64,000 nt of DNA from Phycisphaeraceae bacterium. GTDB taxonomy: Bacteria; Planctomycetota; Phycisphaerae; Phycisphaerales; Phycisphaeraceae. The DNA lies in the NCBI GenBank assembly GCA_020849625.1, contig JADLFV010000046.1:1-64000 (forward strand), in the 5' to 3' direction. The notes below the pieces were generated by a model. It worked only from the letters and a program-made list of their open reading frames with translations. It was not told the origin of the DNA and ran no database searches. Below are positions 2,544 to 34,990 of the stretch, piece after piece. Both the position numbers and the translations under genes were made by a program. Numbering within the stretch: the stretch's first letter is position 1; each line of letters starts with the position of its first letter.

Positions 2544-5141
2544 TTATAACTTGATAGGTGAATGGGAAGCCGCATCACCTGCCGTAAAATCAACAGCCTT
2601 AGTCGTGCCGTGTAAATCGATTGCGTGGAATATGAGGTCCGCAGGCACGTCGCCCGCACACTTGATCACCTTGGGCAACCCAGGGAGCAAGTCGAAATAA
2701 TTGTCGCTCAAAATTCTCTCTCCATCGTCCTGGTAATGGACACCGTGGGCGTAGGTGTCCGATGTCACAGTGATCTTTGAACCGCGGACCACACATTCAA
2801 TTGTCGGGTCGGCCAGGTCCAATTCGCGGTAGGGGCAAAGGTTCCACACACAGGGGATGGTTTCGATCCCATCGGCCTCTATGAAGACTGTATAAATCCA
2901 TTCATGGGGCGATCTGTCTGCGGAAGCCGGTATGCGATCGCGCGCGATTTCCTTCATGCTGTTCGACGGCACCACCACCGCCCTGGACCGGAACTCCGTG
3001 GATGATCCATCCACCGCCACCCACCCGTAGTGAACGGTCATCGACTGATCCACGAGCGAGTCATTCACGACGCGGGCGACCAGGTGCCCATCACGGGCGC
3101 GGACAATGGCCCGTACCGGGTTACAGGCGTTACGGATCCAGTAGTAGCTGGGCTTGCGTCGGAGATAATAGTCGATAGGAGTCCAGCCTGTCTCACCCCA
3201 GCAGTCATTGAACATCCAGATCAGGGCGCCCGCACAATCATCCATGGGATCGTGCTTGCGGAATCGTAGCGCCTCGATAGTCCGGCCATACATGACGGCC
3301 TGAAACATCTGGCCATAACGGATGTACTGCTCGAGTTCCAGCCCATCGGGATCGGCATAGTGATAGCGGATCGCCGCTGGGATGGTACCTTTCTCATAGG
3401 TGTTCGTGTGGCACTTCCATGCCAGGCTGTTCTTGTCGATTTCATCGGGTTTCAGGTACTGGCGAATCGAGGCCATGGTGCAGGGCCCGATGACGCCGTA
3501 CTCACTGACGAATCGCCCACGGCACTCATCGTACACTTCGTGCCGGTAGCGTCTGGTGACATCTTTGCTCATCGTTGCCTTATGCCACCAATGCACGTCG
3601 CCATCGATCTCGCAGTTGGGCGATGGCCCGCCCGCGGGACTACCCGGCCAATAGGGCCGGCTTGGGTCCAGATTCAGGCAAACCTCGGGCAAGATCTGCG
3701 AATAGATGTGCCGCCCACCCAGGATCAGGTCCGGGTGCGGGAAGTTGTGCTGCGCGTTGCCCCACCATTCGGCAAACGCCCAGGTGTTTTCATTGTTGGC
3801 GCACCACAGCACAATGGACGGGTGATGCCGCAACTGGCGGACGACCGCCTCGGCTTCCCGGCGGACCTTGTCGCGGAACTGCACGTCCTCATCAGGGTAG
3901 GCATAACAGGCGAACATAAAGTCCTGCCAAACCAGGATCCCGCGACGGTCACAGGCGTTATAGAAGTGTTCTGACTCATAGATCCCACCACCCCACACGC
4001 GGAGCATCGTCATATTGGCCTCGGCGGCATCCGCCACCAGGCGTTCATACTTTTCCCTGTCGACCCGGGCGGGGATGGCATCGGCGGGCACCCAGTTGCC
4101 ACCCCGGCAAAACACATCCTGGCCGTTGACCTGGAGGGCGAAACGGTGCCCCTCCGGCAGCGGCGAGCGGTCAATGGCTACCGTGCGTAGTCCGATCTGA
4201 CGAGTCCACGTGTCGCGTTCTACCCCATTGATGGTGGCCGTGATCTGCAGGGTGTAGAGCGGCTGCCGCCCCATTGTGTGGGGCCACCACAGTTGCGGTT
4301 TTGCAACAACTAGTGTCGTCCGCAGGCGCGTGATGCCGACCGGCAGCATCGTTACCAGTGTTGTGGAGCAGACTTCAACGCCTTCCGGATCGACCAGTGT
4401 CACGCGAGCGTCAGATGTGTGTTCCGCTGACGGATGCAGATTTTCCAGGTCGATTTCCACATGGACGTGGCATAGAGCGTGGTCTTCCTCCAGCGTACAC
4501 CAGTGTTTCACGTCGGATAGTCGCGCACACGAGTATCCGCGCAGTTCGACACCGCGCCAGATGCCGATATTGGGCAGCGCATCCACCCAGTCCCAGCCGT
4601 AGGAAAACTGGGGTTTACGCAGCTCAGGCGTGCCCTTAAAACTCTGACGGCTGGCATATATGTTCTCGGCTGAACGCTCGCATGTACGCTGGTCCCTGGC
4701 GCGCTCCGTGCCCACGGTCAGACGGACCACCAGCTCGTTTTTCCCATTGCATAAACTGTGGGTGACATCGAACACGGCCGGCACAAACGCGTTCTCGCTC
4801 GCACCGATCATGATCCCGTTCAGGAATATCTGCGCGTAGTAGTCCAGGCCCTGGAAGACCAGTTCCTTGATCTGCTCCCCGGCCACGTCAGCATCGACCA
4901 CGAAGCTGGTCCGATACCACCAGGAATGCTTCTCCGGCCAGCGGCAGGCCGGAGCGTTGGTGCTGACCAGCGGTTCCGGCATAAGGCCGGCCGCCATCAG
5001 ATCCACATGCACCTCTCCTGGCACCGTGGCCGTGATCCATCCGTCCACCCTGCTCAATACAGTCCGCAATCCGTCCGCACCAGCCTCAATCAAGGCTTCG
5101 TGTCGCAGTTGCCACGTCCCATTGATGCTCTGAACCTGCAT
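2544..5141 (-). CDS. Glycoside hydrolase family 2 beta-mannosidase
   Basis: An 865-residue protein of full family length, hydrolysing terminal beta-1,4-linked mannose from manno-oligosaccharides. Layout: N-terminal jelly-roll sugar-binding domain (about 1-200), Ig-like domain (200-320), TIM barrel (320-680) and C-terminal Ig-like domains. The acid/base Glu lies in WCANNEN (E451) and the nucleophile Glu in RFVSEYG (E547). The RVWGGGIYE stretch (381-389) is characteristic of beta-mannosidases rather than beta-galactosidases. No signal peptide is visible, so the enzyme is probably cytoplasmic and acts on imported oligosaccharides. It is the last gene of a minus-strand series with a lyxose/mannose isomerase-like gene, which suggests a mannan route. 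Confidence 0.9.
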   Translation of the reverse strand: MQVQSINGTWQLRHEALIEAGADGLRTVLSRVDGWITATVPGEVHVDLMAAGLMPEPLVSTNAPACRWPEKHSWWYRTSFVVDADVAGEQIKELVFQGLDYYAQIFLNGIMIGASENAFVPAVFDVTHSLCNGKNELVVRLTVGTERARDQRTCERSAENIYASRQSFKGTPELRKPQFSYGWDWVDALPNIGIWRGVELRGYSCARLSDVKHWCTLEEDHALCHVHVEIDLENLHPSAEHTSDARVTLVDPEGVEVCSTTLVTMLPVGITRLRTTLVVAKPQLWWPHTMGRQPLYTLQITATINGVERDTWTRQIGLRTVAIDRSPLPEGHRFALQVNGQDVFCRGGNWVPADAIPARVDREKYERLVADAAEANMTMLRVWGGGIYESEHFYNACDRRGILVWQDFMFACYAYPDEDVQFRDKVRREAEAVVRQLRHHPSIVLWCANNENTWAFAEWWGNAQHNFPHPDLILGGRHIYSQILPEVCLNLDPSRPYWPGSPAGGPSPNCEIDGDVHWWHKATMSKDVTRRYRHEVYDECRGRFVSEYGVIGPCTMASIRQYLKPDEIDKNSLAWKCHTNTYEKGTIPAAIRYHYADPDGLELEQYIRYGQMFQAVMYGRTIEALRFRKHDPMDDCAGALIWMFNDCWGETGWTPIDYYLRRKPSYYWIRNACNPVRAIVRARDGHLVARVVNDSLVDQSMTVHYGWVAVDGSSTEFRSRAVVVPSNSMKEIARDRIPASADRSPHEWIYTVFIEADGIETIPCVWNLCPYRELDLADPTIECVVRGSKITVTSDTYAHGVHYQDDGERILSDNYFDLLPGLPKVIKCAGDVPADLIFHAIDLHGTTKAVDFTAGDAASHSPIKL

Positions 5142-25676: not shown

Positions 25677-27089
25677 CTAGGATTCTAACAGCAATCTGAT
25701 AGCAAGATTGTTATCGTGATTAAGGCTAATAGCCTCCACGTACAAGTCTCTTTGCTGCTCGCGATTAGCAATACAATTCATTGCTTGCCCAGTTTTAAAT
25801 TCAGATGCCAAAAGTTGTCCAAGCCCACGGCCCACAACATAACGCACCTGTTCAATGTACCGCTCTGGTAATTCCACGTCATCTGAGTCAGCAGTTCCTT
25901 CTTTTTTTTGCAGGCTAATATATTCAATAAGCAATATTTTTGCCACAGCCATGTTCCATTCGTCCATGTTGCCATTGGCAATCTCAAGTGCGTGCTTAGC
26001 GTATTGAACAGCCTTCGCTAAACAGATCTTCAATTCTTCTAGATTTTGGGGGCGGGCTTTTCGTATATGCTCAGACTTTTCATGATACAGACGAGCAAGG
26101 TGTATCCATACATAGCAGCTCGTTGGACGTTCACTCTTGGCATCGCAAAGGCATTCATAGGCGCTTTGCCAAAGACGATACCATTCGTTTTCTTCACTAC
26201 GGACAACATGATTCGGAAGCCTTTGGACTTGCTTGAGTTTTAATTCTGCTAATCTCAAGTTTGCTTCAAAAATTCGCTGATCTTTTCCACGCAGTGATGT
26301 ATAGGAACTTATTGCTCCAGGTAGATCGTGATGCACCTCTAACAAATCTGATGCTGTTTTTAACTGTTGAACTATTTCCGGAGTAGGTGGACGATAGCTG
26401 CCTGGCAAAGGGACGGGTTCAGCGTGCGGGCGATTATTTTCTGGTGATGGTTTTGTTACGCCATAAAGCCGTTGGACACCAGGTATCCCACGAAGTAGGC
26501 GATCGTACGGCCCCTTGCAGTCGCACTCGAACGGCACAGTGCTTTGGCGTTCCAAACGATTTGCACAATCCCAAGTACTCTCGCTAATCACGATATGCAT
26601 TGGCAGTGCAAGACCACAAAGACGAGCAGCATAATCAACGGTACTGCCTTGTGGATCTTCTGTCTCGTTATCGCGTAATTTCAACATCCATACCTTACCT
26701 GCATGAATACCGATACGAGTTTGTATACGAAAATCCCACTCAGAGTCAGGTATACTCGCGTTGTACATATCCAATTGCATTATCGCATTTAACCCAGACA
26801 TAATCGCGTGTTCTGCAGCATCGGGGCCCTCAAAATAACCCATTACGCCATCACCAAGAAGCTTCACAACCGTCCCCGGGTGAGAGTAATCTGTTTCGGC
26901 TTCAATACATGTACGGATAATTCGATTGTGCTCAAACGGCTTGATCGCGCCCTTAATAGGGCCGTGTTTGTACTTGAATGAAGTTGAAGCACTCAGATCA
27001 GCGAAGAACACAACCACTTCCTTGTGATCGTTTTCAAACTGCCTTTCCAGCGCACGATATGTCTCGAAGAGTTGTCCGTCTTGTGCCAT
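25677..27089 (-). CDS. Class III nucleotide cyclase with TPR-like C-terminus (copy 1)
   Basis: A 470-residue protein. The cyclase domain (about 20-205) has both metal Asp residues (FFADLSAST and KLLGDGVMGYF), the Lys before GDG and the Asp of EDPQGSTVD (the pair associated with adenine selection), and TRIGIHAGKV. The transition-state Arg is present (DYAARL), but the usual Asn of VNxAxRL is Asp. The C-terminal ~240 residues are helical repeats (LEVHHDLPGAISSYTSLRGK, CYVWIHLARLYHEKSEH), with no transmembrane segment or receptor domain. Likely a cytosolic cNMP synthase. Paralogous to 55178-56614 and convergent with a conserved small gene. A Pycsar-like defence role is possible but unproven. Confidence 0.8.
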   Translation of the reverse strand: MAQDGQLFETYRALERQFENDHKEVVVFFADLSASTSFKYKHGPIKGAIKPFEHNRIIRTCIEAETDYSHPGTVVKLLGDGVMGYFEGPDAAEHAIMSGLNAIMQLDMYNASIPDSEWDFRIQTRIGIHAGKVWMLKLRDNETEDPQGSTVDYAARLCGLALPMHIVISESTWDCANRLERQSTVPFECDCKGPYDRLLRGIPGVQRLYGVTKPSPENNRPHAEPVPLPGSYRPPTPEIVQQLKTASDLLEVHHDLPGAISSYTSLRGKDQRIFEANLRLAELKLKQVQRLPNHVVRSEENEWYRLWQSAYECLCDAKSERPTSCYVWIHLARLYHEKSEHIRKARPQNLEELKICLAKAVQYAKHALEIANGNMDEWNMAVAKILLIEYISLQKKEGTADSDDVELPERYIEQVRYVVGRGLGQLLASEFKTGQAMNCIANREQQRDLYVEAISLNHDNNLAIRLLLES

Positions 27090-27396
27090 GACACCGCTCT
27101 CAAAAGAAGTGACCCGGTCAAGCCCCCGCTACGTGACGAATCGAAGGCACAGTGATTGTCCTACTCCAGACCAACGGCGTCAACAGCGAGGTTTGGGGGC
27201 GATTAGGTTACCCTGGTACCGGGGCGCCACACACAAGCTGGGCAGCTTGCCTTCATTCGCCCCGTTGCACAGGGGTGATCCGTCAATACTTTGAGGCAGG
27301 CACGGGAGCGTACCCTGCCTCTAACATCTAGACTACTTGACACACCGAACATAACCCTATACATTTTAAATAACCATTTATCTCCGGAGCCAAATC
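27090..27396. other. Hairpin-dense region between cyclase and ubiquitin-like operon
   Basis: Four successive inverted repeats lie at 27211-27321: CCCTGGTACCGGGG (27211-27224), AAGCTG-GG-CAGCTT (27235-27248), CCCC/GGGG (27260-27275) and GAGGCAGG/CCTGCCTC (27293-27321). No open frame is supported. They precede the small Pro-rich gene at 27397 and could be a structured leader, an attenuator or an independent RNA. Confidence 0.4.
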
Positions 27397-27561
27397 ATGG
27401 GAAAACACGAACAAGGTAAGCCCGATAGCACACCAGGCCACGGCCCACCCAATAACCCCGGAAACCATGGGAAGCCTCCACATCAACCGCCAGGTCCCCC
27501 ACACCATCCACCAGGTCCACCCAATCCACCACGACCTCCAAAGAAGCGCGACGTCGGATGA
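27397..27561 (+). CDS. 54-residue Pro/His-rich protein ending in Gly, head of the E2-E1-JAB operon
   Basis: ATG at 27397 with GGAG nine bases upstream. The product starts MGKHEQGKPDSTPGHGPPNN, continues with PPG/PPH/PPN repeats, and ends KKRDVG. The stop overlaps the E2-like start as ATGA, so it is translationally coupled. Too short for a beta-grasp fold, yet it occupies the position of the ubiquitin-like gene in comparable operons and ends in glycine, as conjugated modifiers do. It could be a degenerate or non-beta-grasp modifier, a leader peptide, or the target tail. Below common ORF length cut-offs. Confidence 0.6.
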   Translation: MGKHEQGKPDSTPGHGPPNNPGNHGKPPHQPPGPPHHPPGPPNPPRPPKKRDVG

Positions 27562-28478
27562 GCGGAAAGCTATGGTGGGAGCTATTCCCCGACAGGCTTG
27601 GATACGAATTGGCTGCACTCGATGCCGCCAAGATTAGTTACCAACGTGATGAACAGGCTTTTGCAGAAGGTATACTGCGACTTCAACTTCAGTTCACACT
27701 CGATGGTGATACGGTTGAGTTGTACGCCATATTTCCTGACCTTTATCCGTACTTTCGGTTCGAGCTAGAGGCGCCGAACTTATACCTTCCCCATCATCAA
27801 AATCCTTTTCAGAAAAATCTTTGCCTACTTGGGCGTTCGACTGAATTGTGGAACACAAGCGACTGTTTGGCTAAATTCATCACCGAGCGACTTCCCTTAA
27901 CAATAAAAGCTGGTCTAAGTGATACCGTGGATGAGGTAACGACTCTCGAACAGCATCAGGCAGAGCCATATGCTGACTATTACTCCTATCAATTCGGGAC
28001 AGCGATCATTGTCAGTAGCGACTGGAAAATTGATGATCACATCACTTCTGGAACATTAATTCTCGGACTCAACAAATCACTATCTAATCCGTTACATGCG
28101 GCGGTATTGGAAATCCATGATGAGGAAGCTAATACCATAGCCCAAGCAAATGATCGTTTGGCAAACACATATGCCAAAGGTAGAGTTGCGGTACGTTGGG
28201 TGAGACTGGCACAACCCCCTGAGCAAAACTCGCCAGAATTCATATTCAACCATTGTCGTAGTTTAGATCAATTCCCAAGCAAGACTGAGAGCTACCCTAC
28301 AAATGAAGGAAGGCTTCAAATATGTGCCGCACTGTTTCCCGAAGAAATTCGCAACTGGAGGCAACTCGAAGACGGGTGGCTGTTTTCGTGTCGAATAGAG
28401 CACCCTGATTCCTGGGAGATATGGAAAAAAGACCAAAGAACTCGGCACAGACCCAAACGGCGCAAAAGAAGCCGCTAA
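27558..28478 (+). CDS. E2-like (ubiquitin-conjugating fold) protein
   Basis: A 306-residue protein. Residues ~1-110 resemble bacterial E2/UBC-like domains: LYAIFPDLYPYFRFELEAPN, then LPHHQNPFQKNLCLLGRSTE. The candidate catalytic Cys is C89 after the HxN/P-rich stretch. The C-terminal ~190 residues form a second domain of unknown type ending in a strongly basic tail (RHRPKRRKRSR). Overlaps the small Pro-rich gene by four bases and the E1 gene by 58 bases. With E1 and JAB it fits bacterial ubiquitin-like conjugation operons such as the Bil family, some of which act against phage. Confidence 0.75.
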   Translation: MSGKLWWELFPDRLGYELAALDAAKISYQRDEQAFAEGILRLQLQFTLDGDTVELYAIFPDLYPYFRFELEAPNLYLPHHQNPFQKNLCLLGRSTELWNTSDCLAKFITERLPLTIKAGLSDTVDEVTTLEQHQAEPYADYYSYQFGTAIIVSSDWKIDDHITSGTLILGLNKSLSNPLHAAVLEIHDEEANTIAQANDRLANTYAKGRVAVRWVRLAQPPEQNSPEFIFNHCRSLDQFPSKTESYPTNEGRLQICAALFPEEIRNWRQLEDGWLFSCRIEHPDSWEIWKKDQRTRHRPKRRKRSR

Positions 28479-29353
28479 CAAGACGGTTCTCTGGCTACCT
28501 GGCTAGGTCATACTACGCCTCTCCAGATGATCTCGCCTTGCGTGTTCCAGAATTGCAGCCGCTCCGCAACACAACTATCGTGGTCGTTGGTCTCGGTTGC
28601 TTGGGCGCTCCAAGTGTTCTGGAATTCGCAAAAGCTGGCGTGGGTCACATTCGACTCGTCGATCATGACGACGTCGATCCGGCTACTACAGTTCGGTGGC
28701 CCATCGGATTCAGTGCTTCAGGGAAGCAAAAGGCTCAAGCTCTTCACGATTACATTCAAGATAATTACCCCTACACTGAATCAACACCGCATCATCTCCG
28801 AATCGGAGCAATCCGACAGCCTGGCCACAAGTCTCCATCACAAACAACTATTGTGGACGAAATTATCAATGGAGCGAGTTTGATCTACGATGCAACTGCC
28901 GAACTCGGCGTGCAGCACTTTTTGAGCGACTACGCCTGGGAAAAAGGCATCACATATATTGGAGTGTCCGGCACAATGGGTGGTTGGGGCGGCAAAGTGT
29001 TTCGCGTCCGGCCCCACCACGGCAGTGGGTGCTGGTTTTGCTACAGACTCCTGTGTCACGAAGGTACGATAAAGGAACCACCAAGCGCACCAGTTAATGA
29101 ACCCCTTGTCCAGCCTATAGGATGTGCAGACCCTACTTTTACAGGTGCAGGCTTTGACATGCTGCAAATAGGTTTAGCTGGAGTTAGACTGGCAGTTTCT
29201 ACGCTTTGCGAAGGAGTGTCTTCGGGATACCCACCAAGTGATTGGGATGCAATTCACATTCGCCTGCGTGCCGACAATGGAAGCCTCATCCCTCCGTCTT
29301 ATACTGCACACATGATCCTTCCTCACCGCGACTGCCAAATTGACCATGACTAA
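28421..29353 (+). CDS. E1-like ThiF-family activating enzyme
   Basis: A 310-residue E1 domain: VVVGLGCLGAPSVLEFAKAG (ATP loop), HIRLVDHDDVDPATTVRWPI, and GASLIYDATAELGVQHFLSD. A Cys-rich insert GSGCWFCYRLLC may bind zinc. PIGCADPTFTGAGFDMLQI is the conserved region around the candidate catalytic Cys in bacterial E1s of E2/JAB operons. Ribosome site GGGAG precedes the ATG, within the end of the E2 gene. Predicted to adenylate the C-terminus of a small modifier and pass it to the E2-like protein. Confidence 0.85.
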   Translation: MEKRPKNSAQTQTAQKKPLTRRFSGYLARSYYASPDDLALRVPELQPLRNTTIVVVGLGCLGAPSVLEFAKAGVGHIRLVDHDDVDPATTVRWPIGFSASGKQKAQALHDYIQDNYPYTESTPHHLRIGAIRQPGHKSPSQTTIVDEIINGASLIYDATAELGVQHFLSDYAWEKGITYIGVSGTMGGWGGKVFRVRPHHGSGCWFCYRLLCHEGTIKEPPSAPVNEPLVQPIGCADPTFTGAGFDMLQIGLAGVRLAVSTLCEGVSSGYPPSDWDAIHIRLRADNGSLIPPSYTAHMILPHRDCQIDHD

Positions 29354-29843
29354 CCTTAACTTAGATACTGCATGGTTAAATCATGATGCAGTTGAGTGCA
29401 TGATCGCTGAAGCAGACTCGAAAGCACCTAATGAAACTGGTGGCGTCCTGATGGGGTACTTTGTACAACCGAACAATACACCAGTTATATTGTGGTCTGG
29501 TAGACCAGGTCCCAAAGCTGTGCATCTGCCAAGCTACTACGGACCGGATTATGTTTTCGATGAGTTACAAATCGCTGACGTTTATCAGAAATCAGGACGA
29601 CAACTAACCTACATTGGAGATTGGCATACACATCCAGCTACTGTTCCCCACCTAAGTCGCCGTGACAAACGGACGCTTCGTCGCATCGCAACGTATAGAG
29701 CAGCAAGGGTCACCGCGCCGATTATGCTGATCTTAGTATTTGACAATGGTTGGAATCCAGTTATTTGGCAAGGCGCAATTTGTCGTCAGATATATTGGCG
29801 AACGACGCTTTCTCTTACGCAGTTGCCGATATCCATCTTTTGA
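29346..29843 (+). CDS. JAB/JAMM-family isopeptidase-like metalloprotease
   Basis: About 165 residues from the ATG at 29346, overlapping the E1 stop. The full JAMM signature is visible: Glu in NETGGVLMGY, the HxH of GDWHTHP, and Ser/Asp of HLSRRD with the exact HxHx7SxxD spacing. Such enzymes cleave ubiquitin-like modifiers from targets or mature the precursor. It completes an E2-E1-JAB set. The last 20 residues are less conserved-looking. Confidence 0.85.
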   Translation: MTNLNLDTAWLNHDAVECMIAEADSKAPNETGGVLMGYFVQPNNTPVILWSGRPGPKAVHLPSYYGPDYVFDELQIADVYQKSGRQLTYIGDWHTHPATVPHLSRRDKRTLRRIATYRAARVTAPIMLILVFDNGWNPVIWQGAICRQIYWRTTLSLTQLPISIF

Positions 29844-30174: not shown

Positions 30175-33100
30175 CTATCGTCTTTGCTTAAGATCTCGAT
30201 CACGCTTTAGTTTATCGTCGTGCTTTTCAATCTTGCGATTGAGTAGGCGGCATTTGATAGGGTGTAGATTCGCCATTTCTTCCGCGAATCCTAGGGAGTC
30301 GCCAACATTATTAAGCAAAAGAGGATCTACGAGATCAACCACCGATTCGAGTGTCACATATCGATTGTTCACAGTGGCCTTGGCGAGTTCTACAAGTCGT
30401 CGAGCTTGTACTTCACGACCTCGACGTACATGGGCATCGACCGCAGTGGAAAAGACACTACTGTCTCGCTCTGCGTCAATAATATTAAGTAGAGTGGAAT
30501 CAATTCTCTCATGCTGTAGCGAAAGCCAACCCGTTACTTCCAATGCTGCGGCACGGTACTTCGGGTCTGCGCGAGTACAGCGTGGAATTATCCACTGTAA
30601 TACTTCGTCAACTGTCAGATGCCGACGTAGCATTAGGCAAATGTATCTACGCACCTCAAGATCGCGCTCATGAGGCAGTTGGTCGAACAGGTATTCTAGC
30701 CCTTGGGGACGGTCAATATCAATCAGAATGGAAGGGAGATATTCCCGGTCCCGCTCCCATTCTGACCACGCAGCAATTGCGACTCGAAAGGCGTAACTGG
30801 GATTTGTTTTGGCAAGGCCGCGGATCGCATTTGCTGCCGAACCTCGAACAAAGCCAACAGACTTAGCAGTTCTATCCAGTAAGTCGTGGACGTCCTCGCG
30901 CGAACTGTATCCTATAACTTCGAGGGCTTGACTGGATAGCAGCAATCTTGAGTTATTGATAATCCGATCAGCCAGGCGGTCGAGCAAAGCGTCACGTCCG
31001 TCTTGTTCGTAACACAGCCAGACCGCGATCCGTATGTGCTCTTGGGCAGTGCCTTGCTGAAATATGCCCGCGAACTCTTGGATCGCAACTGCGCGATTAA
31101 TACTTGCCAAAAGATTTATAGCCTCAATACAAGTACCGGTGTGATTGAGATACGGCCTTATGCTATCCAGATCTATGTCAGTTACGCCGCATATTCTCAG
31201 TGCCTTCAAGACCGCAGTGGCAATGCTAGCATCGGGAGCAACCGTCCCGAGCATTTTCTGAAGAAAGGCGCTCGCTCGTTTGTGTTTTGTCGATGCTAGT
31301 AAGTAGAGCAATGGCCATGATTCTCTTCCACGGTTCTCGCAGACCTCGATCAATCGAGAGAGCAAGTCGTCTGATATTTTAAGCGGCTCGCCGACGATGT
31401 CTTCTGCATTGCCAAGGAATGACAATAATCGATTTTCTGAGAGTGCGTCAATTGCTACTTCAATTTCACCAAGAGCAATTAGGCTTTGCACTGCTGTACC
31501 TGAATCAATCTGATGTTGTGTGTCGGCTGCTTTAACGTGATCTATTGCAAAAGCTGTCTCGGCCAGCAGTCGCTTTGTTTCATTATCACTAGAAACAACT
31601 GCCCACTGCGTACCGAGGTGCCAGCGTTTCCCATAGTCAGCTCTTAGTTCTTGATTGATTACCTGCGCAAATCCTGTCCCGCCAATCTTGAGGAGAATGC
31701 TGAGAGCATTCACGATCTCGGCATTGAAGTTTACATGATTCCATTGTTTTGACCAGTTAATTGCTGCAGTTGTTAGCTTGGCTTCAAAATTAGTGTTAGC
31801 CAGTGTGCGATACTTGGCAAGAGAATCGGGCGAGCTGACTTTGGCTAACAAATCTAAAGGCAAGTACAAAGGGTGTTGTCGTGGTTCTTCTTGACCATTC
31901 AAGTGGCGATCTAAGAGGCGCTCCAGCTCGTTGGCCATCAATTCTAGAGTATTGGGATCAATAAGGTGTTCATTGCCCTGATAATACATCGCCGTCTTGA
32001 ATGGCCGTTCAGAGGTGACCATTTGGCGTCGTATTGCTTCGCGGGTGTGATCGGGATCAGCTATCATCAGTCTGGGAAGCCAATGATACCGCATCATATA
32101 GGCTTCATTGCGTATAAGCTTCTCAATGAGTTCTATTGCACGTGTCGGATGAAGCTGAGCAAGGGTGCTGAATGCGAATCCTTTGTCGTGGCCATTTGAC
32201 GTACTCAATATCCACGCCTCAAGCCGCGGAATCTCGGTCATGTCGTGGAAACGTCGAATGCAAGCAATGAGGGGGCGATGCGCCACGTGTTGTAGGGACT
32301 CAATTAAGTGTGATTTGATCTGAGGCCACTCGGCATCAGCCGTACCCTCCGGGGAAGCAGCTAACAGCCACGCCAATTCCTTAAGTGAGGGATCGGATGA
32401 GTCTGATGTTCGAATCTTTTCAAGAAGCCACTGCAGATTCGCTGCTGTTGTGGCGCGCATAACCTGATTGCCGCGTTCATACTCGCGATATGGTCTTTCC
32501 TTGACTGGAAGTTCATCAAGAAGTCGGCTTATGCTCTTATGTCGATCCCAGATAATATCAATAACAGATGCCAGCGGCCGTTCCGCTAGTATCTCCATCG
32601 CGGCAGCCTGAAGTTCAGCGCAATCGTCTTCGATCCACGACTGCACATGAGCGTCGCACTGTGCCGGAGAGTCGCGGGATATTTTGAGCACACAATCATT
32701 GACATAAGAGGGTAGCGGATTCCATTGCTTACCTGTCGTGTCGCGAAGCCTATGTTCGAGGACCGGCAGCACCCGGTATCCGATCGACGAAACAATTACG
32801 CGATATATTTCGCCGCAGTCGTGGTTATATTTGAAATGTTCGTCAATTGCCGCCATCACTGCTGCCGCATCTTTAATGTCCTCGTGATTGTCGCTGCGCG
32901 TCAACAGCCAGAGGACGTCGCCCAAGACATAGCCAAGGTGGGTATCTTTGCCGGGGACGATATGATCGCGAGAATTTACAACGCGACTTGTGAAGTCGTG
33001 TTTGTTAACTGTCTGTGTATGCCTACCGTCTCGACGCCAAGCCACGAGTGCCTCGGCGATTAGCCAGTTGAGCAGGCGATCGTGCCAGACTGCTGCATGT

Positions 33101-34779
33101 TCGTCGCTGTAGGGGCGTTGAATCCAGCCAGCGTGCTCTAGCCGCAACCTCATATCATCATTGAGTCCAGCACTGCGGAGTGCTTCGCCAGACCACGGAT
33201 ATTGGCCGCCTTCGAGAAGCGACATGGCTAATCGCCGGAGAATAACTACGTCAGATGGATGTTCTGCCTGCACACCAAATGTGCGAAGCCGCTTGTGAAA
33301 CTCATTACAGATAGCGTATTCACTGGTCGCGTGCCAGCCTGCTGACGTATCAAGTTTCAGATATATACCAGCGACGATTGGACGCAAAAGTAAATTAAAT
33401 ACATCGGAGGGTAGGTGCTCAGGTGATCTGCTGTGTCTTGTTAAGAGGTCACGCAGTTGTGAAGGCGTAAAATCTTGTACGGGGGCCATAACTGTAGCGT
33501 CTGTCAGTGCACGAACCTTTATACTCTGAGCAATTGCAGTTGTGGTAAAGAGGGCCAATCGGGCACCCCAGTCAGTCCACGGTTGATTCAACAGATGTTG
33601 TGCATCACTCGGCGACTTGACATCATCAATTATGATGTTCAGCCACGGTTCAGGTGATTGTGGTGCCTGTTCTCGCCGTAGTCGTGAGAGCTGATCTAGT
33701 GTGGGTGCGGCCGAAAACCGACTAAGGACTTCGCCCCAGATGCGATCAGCAGCCATGTGAAGAGTACTTGTCGCATTATCTTGCAATGACATCCACAGAG
33801 TTACTTGAGGTTCGTATGTTAGCTGCTCAAATAGACTGCCAGACTGCCATGTACTACCTTGTCCACTCTCACTCGGAACTACAATTATGGGTGAGTTAAT
33901 AGTCCAGATGGAGGTGTCTAGGGTGAAAGGGCGTACATCAAATTGAGGTCGATACCCTGCTCTGTGTAGTCGTGATCTTGAAGCAAGATGTGATGCCGAG
34001 CGTATTGCTTGCCAAGCATAAAATGGGCGTTCGGCAAGGCCTAGTTCGCGCAGCAAGAATTGCGGAGTTAGTGTAAATGATCCACGAGATGCATGAGTAG
34101 CAATAAAGCCAAAAGCCTGATCGATTACTCTCTCAACGTTGCCCGGATCATCTGCCAGTAGTGAAAAATAGCGACGTAGCCGTCGTCGGATCTCGTCGAA
34201 TCCTTTGTGTGACTTGACGCGAATGCGAGGTAATAGATGCCAGAGCTTGGTATGAACAGTCGCATCATCGTCTTGTTTCGCGCGGGTTTTGCATTCTGTT
34301 GCGATGGCATCGAATAAGCTACGCTCCGTGTAGCTAGTATCTTTTGTTTTCGCAATTACTATCTTGTCGTTGAGCAGATGGACATTTCGGCTCTTGTCCC
34401 GTAGTGAATTAAAGAAGGTCTGTGCTCCTCCCCAGCGGCCTCGGTGGCCCTCAGTTACGAAGTAGTAATGATCCGGGCCGTCAATGCGTGATAGATCCAC
34501 CGCTAAGTAGAGATCGGGAATAACGTCGTTAATGAAACTGTTTAATGACCAGGACGACTCTCCAGAACTAGCCTTCAGTTGCTCAACAATCCTACCTTGA
34601 GGTTGCCGAAGCTGGAAGTCGCCTCCACCGCCCGCCGGTTCAATTACAAACACACTCGACTCAAGGTCGTCCCCTGTCTTGATTGCACGCACGGCCACAA
34701 AACCCGCTCTATCAAGGATGCGTAGGGTTTGATACGTAACGCCGTAGATGTTTGCGGAGCCACCCGGTTGTGTCGCCAT
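30175..34779 (-). CDS. Giant STAND-like protein with nuclease-like N-terminus
   Basis: A protein of about 1534 residues (ATG at 34779; a GTG at 34794 is also in frame). N-terminus: GSANIYGVTYQTLRILDRAG, then GDFQLRQPQGRIVEQLKAS, the D...QxK pattern of Cap4/DUF4297-type nucleases. The P-loop region (about 300-312) reads IIVVPSESGQGSTWQ, where the first Gly and the Lys of GxxGxGK(S/T) are both Ser. Walker B-like LNIIIDDVKSP follows. The remaining ~1000 residues are helical repeats (for example HEAT-like RLIEVCENRGRESWPLLYLL). This matches Avs/AVAST-like defence sensors, except that the degenerate Walker A questions ATP use. Confidence 0.7.
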   Translation of the reverse strand: MATQPGGSANIYGVTYQTLRILDRAGFVAVRAIKTGDDLESSVFVIEPAGGGGDFQLRQPQGRIVEQLKASSGESSWSLNSFINDVIPDLYLAVDLSRIDGPDHYYFVTEGHRGRWGGAQTFFNSLRDKSRNVHLLNDKIVIAKTKDTSYTERSLFDAIATECKTRAKQDDDATVHTKLWHLLPRIRVKSHKGFDEIRRRLRRYFSLLADDPGNVERVIDQAFGFIATHASRGSFTLTPQFLLRELGLAERPFYAWQAIRSASHLASRSRLHRAGYRPQFDVRPFTLDTSIWTINSPIIVVPSESGQGSTWQSGSLFEQLTYEPQVTLWMSLQDNATSTLHMAADRIWGEVLSRFSAAPTLDQLSRLRREQAPQSPEPWLNIIIDDVKSPSDAQHLLNQPWTDWGARLALFTTTAIAQSIKVRALTDATVMAPVQDFTPSQLRDLLTRHSRSPEHLPSDVFNLLLRPIVAGIYLKLDTSAGWHATSEYAICNEFHKRLRTFGVQAEHPSDVVILRRLAMSLLEGGQYPWSGEALRSAGLNDDMRLRLEHAGWIQRPYSDEHAAVWHDRLLNWLIAEALVAWRRDGRHTQTVNKHDFTSRVVNSRDHIVPGKDTHLGYVLGDVLWLLTRSDNHEDIKDAAAVMAAIDEHFKYNHDCGEIYRVIVSSIGYRVLPVLEHRLRDTTGKQWNPLPSYVNDCVLKISRDSPAQCDAHVQSWIEDDCAELQAAAMEILAERPLASVIDIIWDRHKSISRLLDELPVKERPYREYERGNQVMRATTAANLQWLLEKIRTSDSSDPSLKELAWLLAASPEGTADAEWPQIKSHLIESLQHVAHRPLIACIRRFHDMTEIPRLEAWILSTSNGHDKGFAFSTLAQLHPTRAIELIEKLIRNEAYMMRYHWLPRLMIADPDHTREAIRRQMVTSERPFKTAMYYQGNEHLIDPNTLELMANELERLLDRHLNGQEEPRQHPLYLPLDLLAKVSSPDSLAKYRTLANTNFEAKLTTAAINWSKQWNHVNFNAEIVNALSILLKIGGTGFAQVINQELRADYGKRWHLGTQWAVVSSDNETKRLLAETAFAIDHVKAADTQHQIDSGTAVQSLIALGEIEVAIDALSENRLLSFLGNAEDIVGEPLKISDDLLSRLIEVCENRGRESWPLLYLLASTKHKRASAFLQKMLGTVAPDASIATAVLKALRICGVTDIDLDSIRPYLNHTGTCIEAINLLASINRAVAIQEFAGIFQQGTAQEHIRIAVWLCYEQDGRDALLDRLADRIINNSRLLLSSQALEVIGYSSREDVHDLLDRTAKSVGFVRGSAANAIRGLAKTNPSYAFRVAIAAWSEWERDREYLPSILIDIDRPQGLEYLFDQLPHERDLEVRRYICLMLRRHLTVDEVLQWIIPRCTRADPKYRAAALEVTGWLSLQHERIDSTLLNIIDAERDSSVFSTAVDAHVRRGREVQARRLVELAKATVNNRYVTLESVVDLVDPLLLNNVGDSLGFAEEMANLHPIKCRLLNRKIEKHDDKLKRDRDLKQRR

Positions 34780-34990
34780 GACGGTCTGATCCACTTGACC
34801 AAGAAAGTCAAATTTGGATACGACTTAAACACCGCTGGTGGCCATACTAATGGGCCCCCGACGGCGGCTTTGTCGACTCAGTTAATCGCGATCCTTGGCG
34901 CGTTGATACTGAGTTATGCTAGATGATGATACATCTTGGGTGGGAGCACCACAAACGAGCTCATCGCTTTACCGCATTTGAAAATCGGCG

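Follow-up and report, generated by a model that had tools for sequence, protein, structure and literature searches.

To our knowledge, conjugation cascades built from E1 and E2 enzymes act almost entirely on beta-grasp proteins, the known exception being a whole CD-NTase. Among other protein modifiers, actinobacterial Pup is a disordered protein of about 60 residues, with a C-terminus that is deamidated in some species, and it is ligated through its C-terminal Glu by PafA, a relative of glutamine synthetase, without an E1, an E2 or a JAMM enzyme. In type II CBASS, Cap2 forms a thioester with the C-terminal Gly of the CD-NTase, a substrate without a ubiquitin fold, and conjugates it mainly to lysines (Jenson et al., PMC10097602). 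The C-terminal Gly or Ala of the CD-NTase is conserved only in operons that have both Cap2 and Cap3 (PMC10097602). In the Bil system (BilABCD), BilC trims BilA and exposes its terminal Gly (PMC11354881). Type 6c of Iyer et al. (2006), with its prototype on the NGR234 megaplasmid, comprises E2 and E1, a JAB protein and a predicted metal-binding protein, and the accessible part of that paper mentions no Pro-rich peptide (PMC1779556).

Here we analyse an operon in a window of 64,000 nucleotides (the whole stretch of DNA considered, from a Phycisphaeraceae bacterium) in which E2, E1 and JAMM genes follow a very short Pro-rich gene. We suggest that this gene encodes a modifier without a ubiquitin fold.

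Organization of the operon

The first gene (27397-27561, plus strand) is preceded by the ribosome binding site GGAG at 27386-27389, 7 nt 5' of its ATG, and its 54 codons translate into a Pro/Gly/His-rich peptide, the predicted modifier, which ends in R51-D-V-G54 (MGKHEQGKPDSTPGHGPPNNPGNHGKPPHQPPGPPHHPPGPPNPPRPPKKRDVG). Its stop codon and the E2 start codon share the ATGA at 27558-27561. The E2 (UBC) protein (27558-28478, plus strand; 306 aa) matches Prok-E2_B in Pfam at 4e-8, and the codon of its catalytic Cys89 lies at 27822-27824. The gene of the E1-like adenylating enzyme of the ThiF family (28421-29353, plus strand; 310 aa; Pfam ThiF, 1.6e-22) overlaps the E2 gene by 58 nt in a different frame, and its Cys235 (codon 29123-29125), predicted by analogy with Cap2 and ThiF to be the thioester Cys, stands in a G-C-x3-T-F-T-G motif that is invariant in 44 of 44 sequences. 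A few bases of the end of the E1 gene are shared with the start of the JAB/JAMM metallopeptidase gene (29346-29843, plus strand; Pfam Prok-JAB, 4.5e-11), which encodes 165 aa from its ATG or 167 aa from an upstream TTG at 29340, the start from which we number its residues. We predict that this enzyme is a deconjugase and, in some relatives, a precursor-processing enzyme as well. All three Pfam matches are above cut-off; the peptide matches no model in Pfam, NCBIfam, PADLOC or PHROGs, and there is no nucleotidyltransferase among the four genes.

An earlier note on this DNA, made from the letters alone, had described the operon as a 54-mer gene ending in VG, with a ribosome site and ATGA coupling to an E2 gene with Cys89, followed by E1 and JAMM genes with a complete HxHx7SxxD motif and no beta-grasp modifier. 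Every one of these elements is found exactly where it was placed, the JAMM motif reading H96-x-H98-x7-S106-xx-D109, and both this motif and Cys89 are invariant across relatives. No beta-grasp gene lies near the operon, nor is one a conserved neighbour of its relatives.

The E2 and E1 domains are fused in most relatives. A frameshift error was considered as the cause of the split genes of the window; the split is probably real, since split genes with ordinary overlaps also occur in two other loci (L013 and L015). Divergent to the operon lies a class III nucleotidyl cyclase gene (25677-27089, minus strand; PF00211, 7e-11; PADLOC PycC, 1e-13) whose product has a long C-terminal region and could be a Pycsar-like or an ordinary cyclase. 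Convergent with the operon is a gene for a 1,539-residue protein (30175-34794, minus strand) that has only weak HEAT-repeat matches and no PADLOC match; its N-terminal region looks nuclease-like by eye.

Distribution of the operon

A protein search of plasmids recovered the E2 in Hymenobacter, Arthrobacter, Iamia, Indioceanicola, Sphingobium and Sinorhizobium, and in each of the first five loci examined a Pro-rich ORF, annotated in one of the five, lay 5' of the E2 gene with V-G at its very end or beside it. Scanning 84,980 species genomes yielded another 32 loci, which belong to Planctomycetota, Actinomycetota, Patescibacteria, Pseudomonadota, Thermodesulfobacteriota, Bacteroidota and candidate division KSB1; L013 and L068 came from genome searches, and a second NGR234 locus (L047) from E1 matches. 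The operon of the window thus has 45 relatives in at least seven phyla, which are partly non-independent, since near-identical copies occur among the rhizobia (several) and in Hymenobacter (two). Plasmid pNGR234a holds two loci of the family (L005 and L047), and the rhizobial members were probably included in type 6c, as far as the accessible part of its description goes (PMC1779556). Carriers are sparse (2 of 392 genomes in the phylum of the window and, when sampling was done around known carriers, 1 of 395, 2 of 398 and 1 of 287), and no relative was found in the viral contigs scanned with the E2 and an E2 alignment or in the phage records scanned.

The earlier note had staked its proposal on the conservation of a short Pro-rich, Gly-ended ORF 5' of homologous E2 genes and on the lack of a beta-grasp protein nearby, and both expectations hold. 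Such an ORF, with its Gly, is kept in 44 of the 45 relatives, across many phyla, and the ORF ends about 40 nt or less from the E2 start or overlaps it. The exception (L036) is a decayed copy, since its peptide gene is frameshifted just 5' of PPGHRPVG and its E1 gene is broken. The peptides are 41-59 residues long, rarely more through fusion, and rich in Pro, Gly and His. In all intact loci the order is peptide, E2-E1 (fused or split) and JAB on one strand (at L029 the contig ends early), and these are the only genes common to all loci.

Several features were seen at individual loci. Plasmid copies L002, L003 and L010 lie amid heavy-metal resistance genes and have His-rich peptides. At L005, L009, L010, L031, L032 and L035 a RES/Xre toxin-antitoxin pair is found on the opposite strand just 5' of the operon, and two related loci have a DUF2188 ORF directly 5' of the peptide gene (L020:5555-5812 and L021:5550-5810). 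L014 (G238) has a second, truncated E2-E1-JAB copy, in which transposase-like ORFs replace the E2 N-terminus.

The peptide and its C-terminal tail

The C-terminal V-G is present in all 44 ORF-bearing relatives, with an Arg (once a Lys) two residues ahead of the Val. Among the 34 distinct 14-residue tails of 44 loci (the window included), Val(-1) and Gly(0) are invariant, whereas at position -3 there are 33 Arg and a single Lys, for a consensus of P-P-x-x-R-[P/E/Q/D]-V-G. Many different synonymous codons encode the last two residues. One or two residues follow the Gly in five loci (VGQQ in L002 and L022, VGQ in L042, VGQG in L043 and VGR in L068); the VG-QQ form occurs in Hymenobacter. In seven groups of relatives pN/pS for the peptide is 0-0.18, with substitutions concentrated at third positions, which shows that the peptide is translated and subject to purifying selection. 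When 9,403 six-frame ORFs of at least 30 codons, from the loci, were screened for [RK]-x-[VI]-G with 0-3 extra residues and a Pro-rich tail, only the ORF ahead of E2 was selected, one per locus, apart from a single spurious ORF on the minus strand, so the peptide ORF is not a chance occurrence. AlphaFold2 gave no helix or strand (pTM 0.22), and the peptide is predicted to have no fold and to be intrinsically disordered, of polyproline type. We found no published description of it; our coverage of the literature is incomplete, and a prior description is possible.

The same type of tail occurs at the end of larger proteins. In L017, from Patescibacteria, the gene in the slot of the peptide encodes a Thoeris ThsB-type TIR protein (Pfam, 9e-26), matched by PADLOC ThsB (2e-61) over residues 1-157 of 200, after which come a linker and PPVPPRRREVG. 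The TIR protein also matches PDC-M50B and the product of the gene 5' of it matches PDC-M50A, which are two components of one candidate defence system, so that at L017:4985-5975 a candidate defence pair, its TIR member bearing an added Pro-rich RREVG tail, precedes E2-E1-JAB. In L025 (5492-5974) two DUF1508 (YegP family) repeats are fused to a Pro-rich tail that ends in KDRQVG; YegP homologues have been described beside CapK/CapS regulators (PMC13373217). These sequences suggest that the tail is a portable conjugation handle, usually forming the end of a peptide that is the whole modifier and sometimes that of a protein of the TIR or DUF1508 type.

The short ORF could instead be a regulatory leader, at which polyproline ribosome stalling sets coupled E2-E1 translation while the real substrate of the E1 is encoded elsewhere. 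Polyproline leader peptides are able to regulate translation of downstream genes, and this ORF is short, Pro-rich, directly 5' of the E2 start and often overlaps it. We nevertheless consider a leader very improbable: the most conserved part of the peptide is the C-terminal R-x-V-G and not a stalling motif, selection acts on the amino acids, the distance to E2 varies from an overlap to about 40 nt, and related operons carry a known conjugation substrate in the slot. The identical type of tail on a full-length TIR protein and on DUF1508 repeats fits poorly with a leader and suggests the conjugation handle.

Kinship of the enzymes with Cap2

In the 41-45 loci compared, residues of the E1 ATP site, the E1 and E2 cysteines and the JAMM motif vary not at all or hardly at all, as expected of a general E1-E2-JAMM system with intact catalytic residues. 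Cys89 of E2 is invariant in 45 of 45; the E1 retains the G-x-G-x2-G loop, Arg92, Lys104, Asp157, Cys204, Cys207 and Cys235, and the JAB protein Glu32, His96, His98, Ser106 and Asp109. A model of the fused E2-E1 of L016 (pLDDT 81) had Cap2 structures (7to3 and 7tqd) as its best matches in Foldseek, the best over the whole length being Cap2-CdnD02 (7to3, E 1.5e-20). A search of PDB sequences with the E1 returned ThiF and MoeB only, Cap2 being reached through structure alone. VIA-align of the E1 domain gave many E1 families at tied Z, and Cap2 was not ranked among the matches listed, so the kinship with Cap2 rests on Foldseek. By the Foldseek comparison, Cap2 is the nearest structural neighbour of the E2-E1.

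Type II CBASS is among the closest known systems. Like the peptide operon, it has E2-E1 and JAB in this order with the substrate gene directly 5'; its substrate has no ubiquitin fold and is engaged via a single C-terminal Gly. We checked ten operons of CBASS type, taken from plasmids and genomes (L048, L050, L051, L053, L054 and L069-L073): the slot is occupied by a nucleotidyltransferase whose low-complexity tail ends in G or A, and none of the ten has a Pro-rich ORF. In the peptide operon the slot is filled instead by a Pro-rich peptide that stands alone and ends in R-x-V-G; the operon has a Cap2-like E2-E1 and a Cap3-like JAB (the Cap3 model matches at 4e-8, far below its curated cut-off), but contains neither a CBASS effector nor a CD-NTase gene, and no CD-NTase gene is common to the loci. 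The 6A-MBL operons (type 6a of Iyer; L049 in our set) likewise place one partner gene immediately 5' of E2-E1 and JAB domains, but there the JAB is fused and the partner is a metallo-beta-lactamase protein, ending in KPMGGQ in L049, which has no Pro-rich ORF. In the peptide operon JAB is a separate gene, no metallo-beta-lactamase gene is common to the loci, and NF058523 matched the E1 and JAB of the window far below its 320-bit cut-off. The L049 protein (2842-3873, ending in RKPMGGQ) may itself be a conjugated substrate after trimming.

The E1 sequences separate along the same lines. Full-length members of the family score about 290 or more with the E1 profile, fragmented or frameshifted copies 58-238, and CBASS, 6A-MBL and other controls at most 106. 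In the E1 tree the Pro-rich-peptide family lies on one side of one branch (support 89/72), which gives moderate support for a single clade.

The earlier note had likened the operon to antiphage Bil. The likeness to Bil and Bub holds for the presence of E1, E2 and JAB plus a modifier gene, and the VG-QQ forms of the peptide may parallel the trimming of BilA by BilC; the Bil and Bub modifiers are beta-grasp proteins, however, and the peptide operon encodes none. Type II CBASS is the apter comparison, the E2-E1 being nearest to Cap2 and the Cap2 substrate lacking a ubiquitin fold. Pup resembles the peptide in being short and disordered, but it is ligated by PafA, whereas the peptide is accompanied by E1, E2 and JAMM genes; no PafA-type ligase beside the modifier is common to the loci.

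A model for peptide conjugation

We conclude that E1/E2-driven, JAMM-reversible conjugation of a disordered peptide is the best explanation of this operon, with a probability of roughly 0.88. The peptide is probably the substrate of the E1 and E2, by analogy, because the gene in the same slot of CBASS operons encodes the known conjugated CD-NTase, and because no other gene is common to the loci and no ubiquitin-fold gene lies near the operon of the window. We infer every chemical step, as well as the targets and the biological role. The E1 would adenylate the C-terminal Gly of the peptide and capture it as a thioester on Cys235, from which it would pass to Cys89 of the E2; the E2 would then attach it to an amine, probably of lysine, on target proteins, and the JAMM enzyme would remove it. 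In homologues with one or two residues past VG, the JAMM enzyme would first trim the precursor. We hypothesize that Arg(-3) and Val(-1) of the tail are recognised by the E1.

The E1 fold by itself matches MccB, ThiF and MoeB well, and the substrate of MccB is a short peptide, so the E1 might instead serve a RiPP-type or sulfur-carrier pathway (compare MccB/microcin C7 and ThiF/ThiS) and produce a modified peptide or thiocarboxylate without attachment to protein. There is little to recommend this, since every intact operon pairs the E1 with an E2 whose Cys89 is invariant and with a complete JAMM enzyme, the best full-length structural match is Cap2, and no further gene, for instance for a transporter, immunity or a rhodanese, is conserved beside the loci. 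Least credible is a beta-grasp modifier encoded elsewhere with the Pro-rich peptide as an accessory adaptor or scaffold: the genome of the window has three ThiS/MoaD-type genes that the E1 could use in principle, but all are on other contigs, Prok_Ub and Multi_ubiq gave nothing above cut-off in the whole genome, no beta-grasp gene is common to the loci, and an adaptor would have no need of an unvarying VG at its C-terminus.

Conjugation remains our preferred reading. In its fuller form, the operon would provide a standalone disordered polyproline-type modifier, used through its C-terminal R-x-V-G by its own E1-E2 and removed by its JAMM enzyme, while the same tail would double as a portable tag by which immune proteins, for instance the Thoeris-type TIR, become conjugatable; this we consider likely.

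Biological role

Divergent HTH and M78 metallopeptidase genes adjoin L020, L021, L025 and L028, and co-directional ones L023. The two of these neighbours scanned with PADLOC matched capP, that of L028, from a betaproteobacterium, at 1e-55 and that of L020, from Geotalea, at 5e-32, with capH at 2e-5. CapP/CapH-type regulators govern CBASS and Bub operons upon DNA damage (PMC13373217). Because of these regulators, the TIR fusion and the sparse distribution, the operon is probably a mobile defence or stress module, acting in anti-phage defence or stress immunity. Neither capP/capH nor a TIR gene adjoins the copy in the window, whose role is deduced from its relatives.

If the model is correct, it would define a new kind of protein tag, a short proline-rich peptide ending in Arg-x-Val-Gly rather than a folded protein of ubiquitin type. 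The enzymes of a conjugation cascade would then need only the tail, and the ubiquitin fold would be dispensable in a modifier. It would also explain the substrate of orphan E2-E1-JAB operons, missed because the gene of the peptide is tiny and in many cases unannotated. The R-x-V-G tail provides a search motif for more conjugated proteins, and its fusion to a TIR protein suggests that conjugation control has been added onto different immune enzymes.
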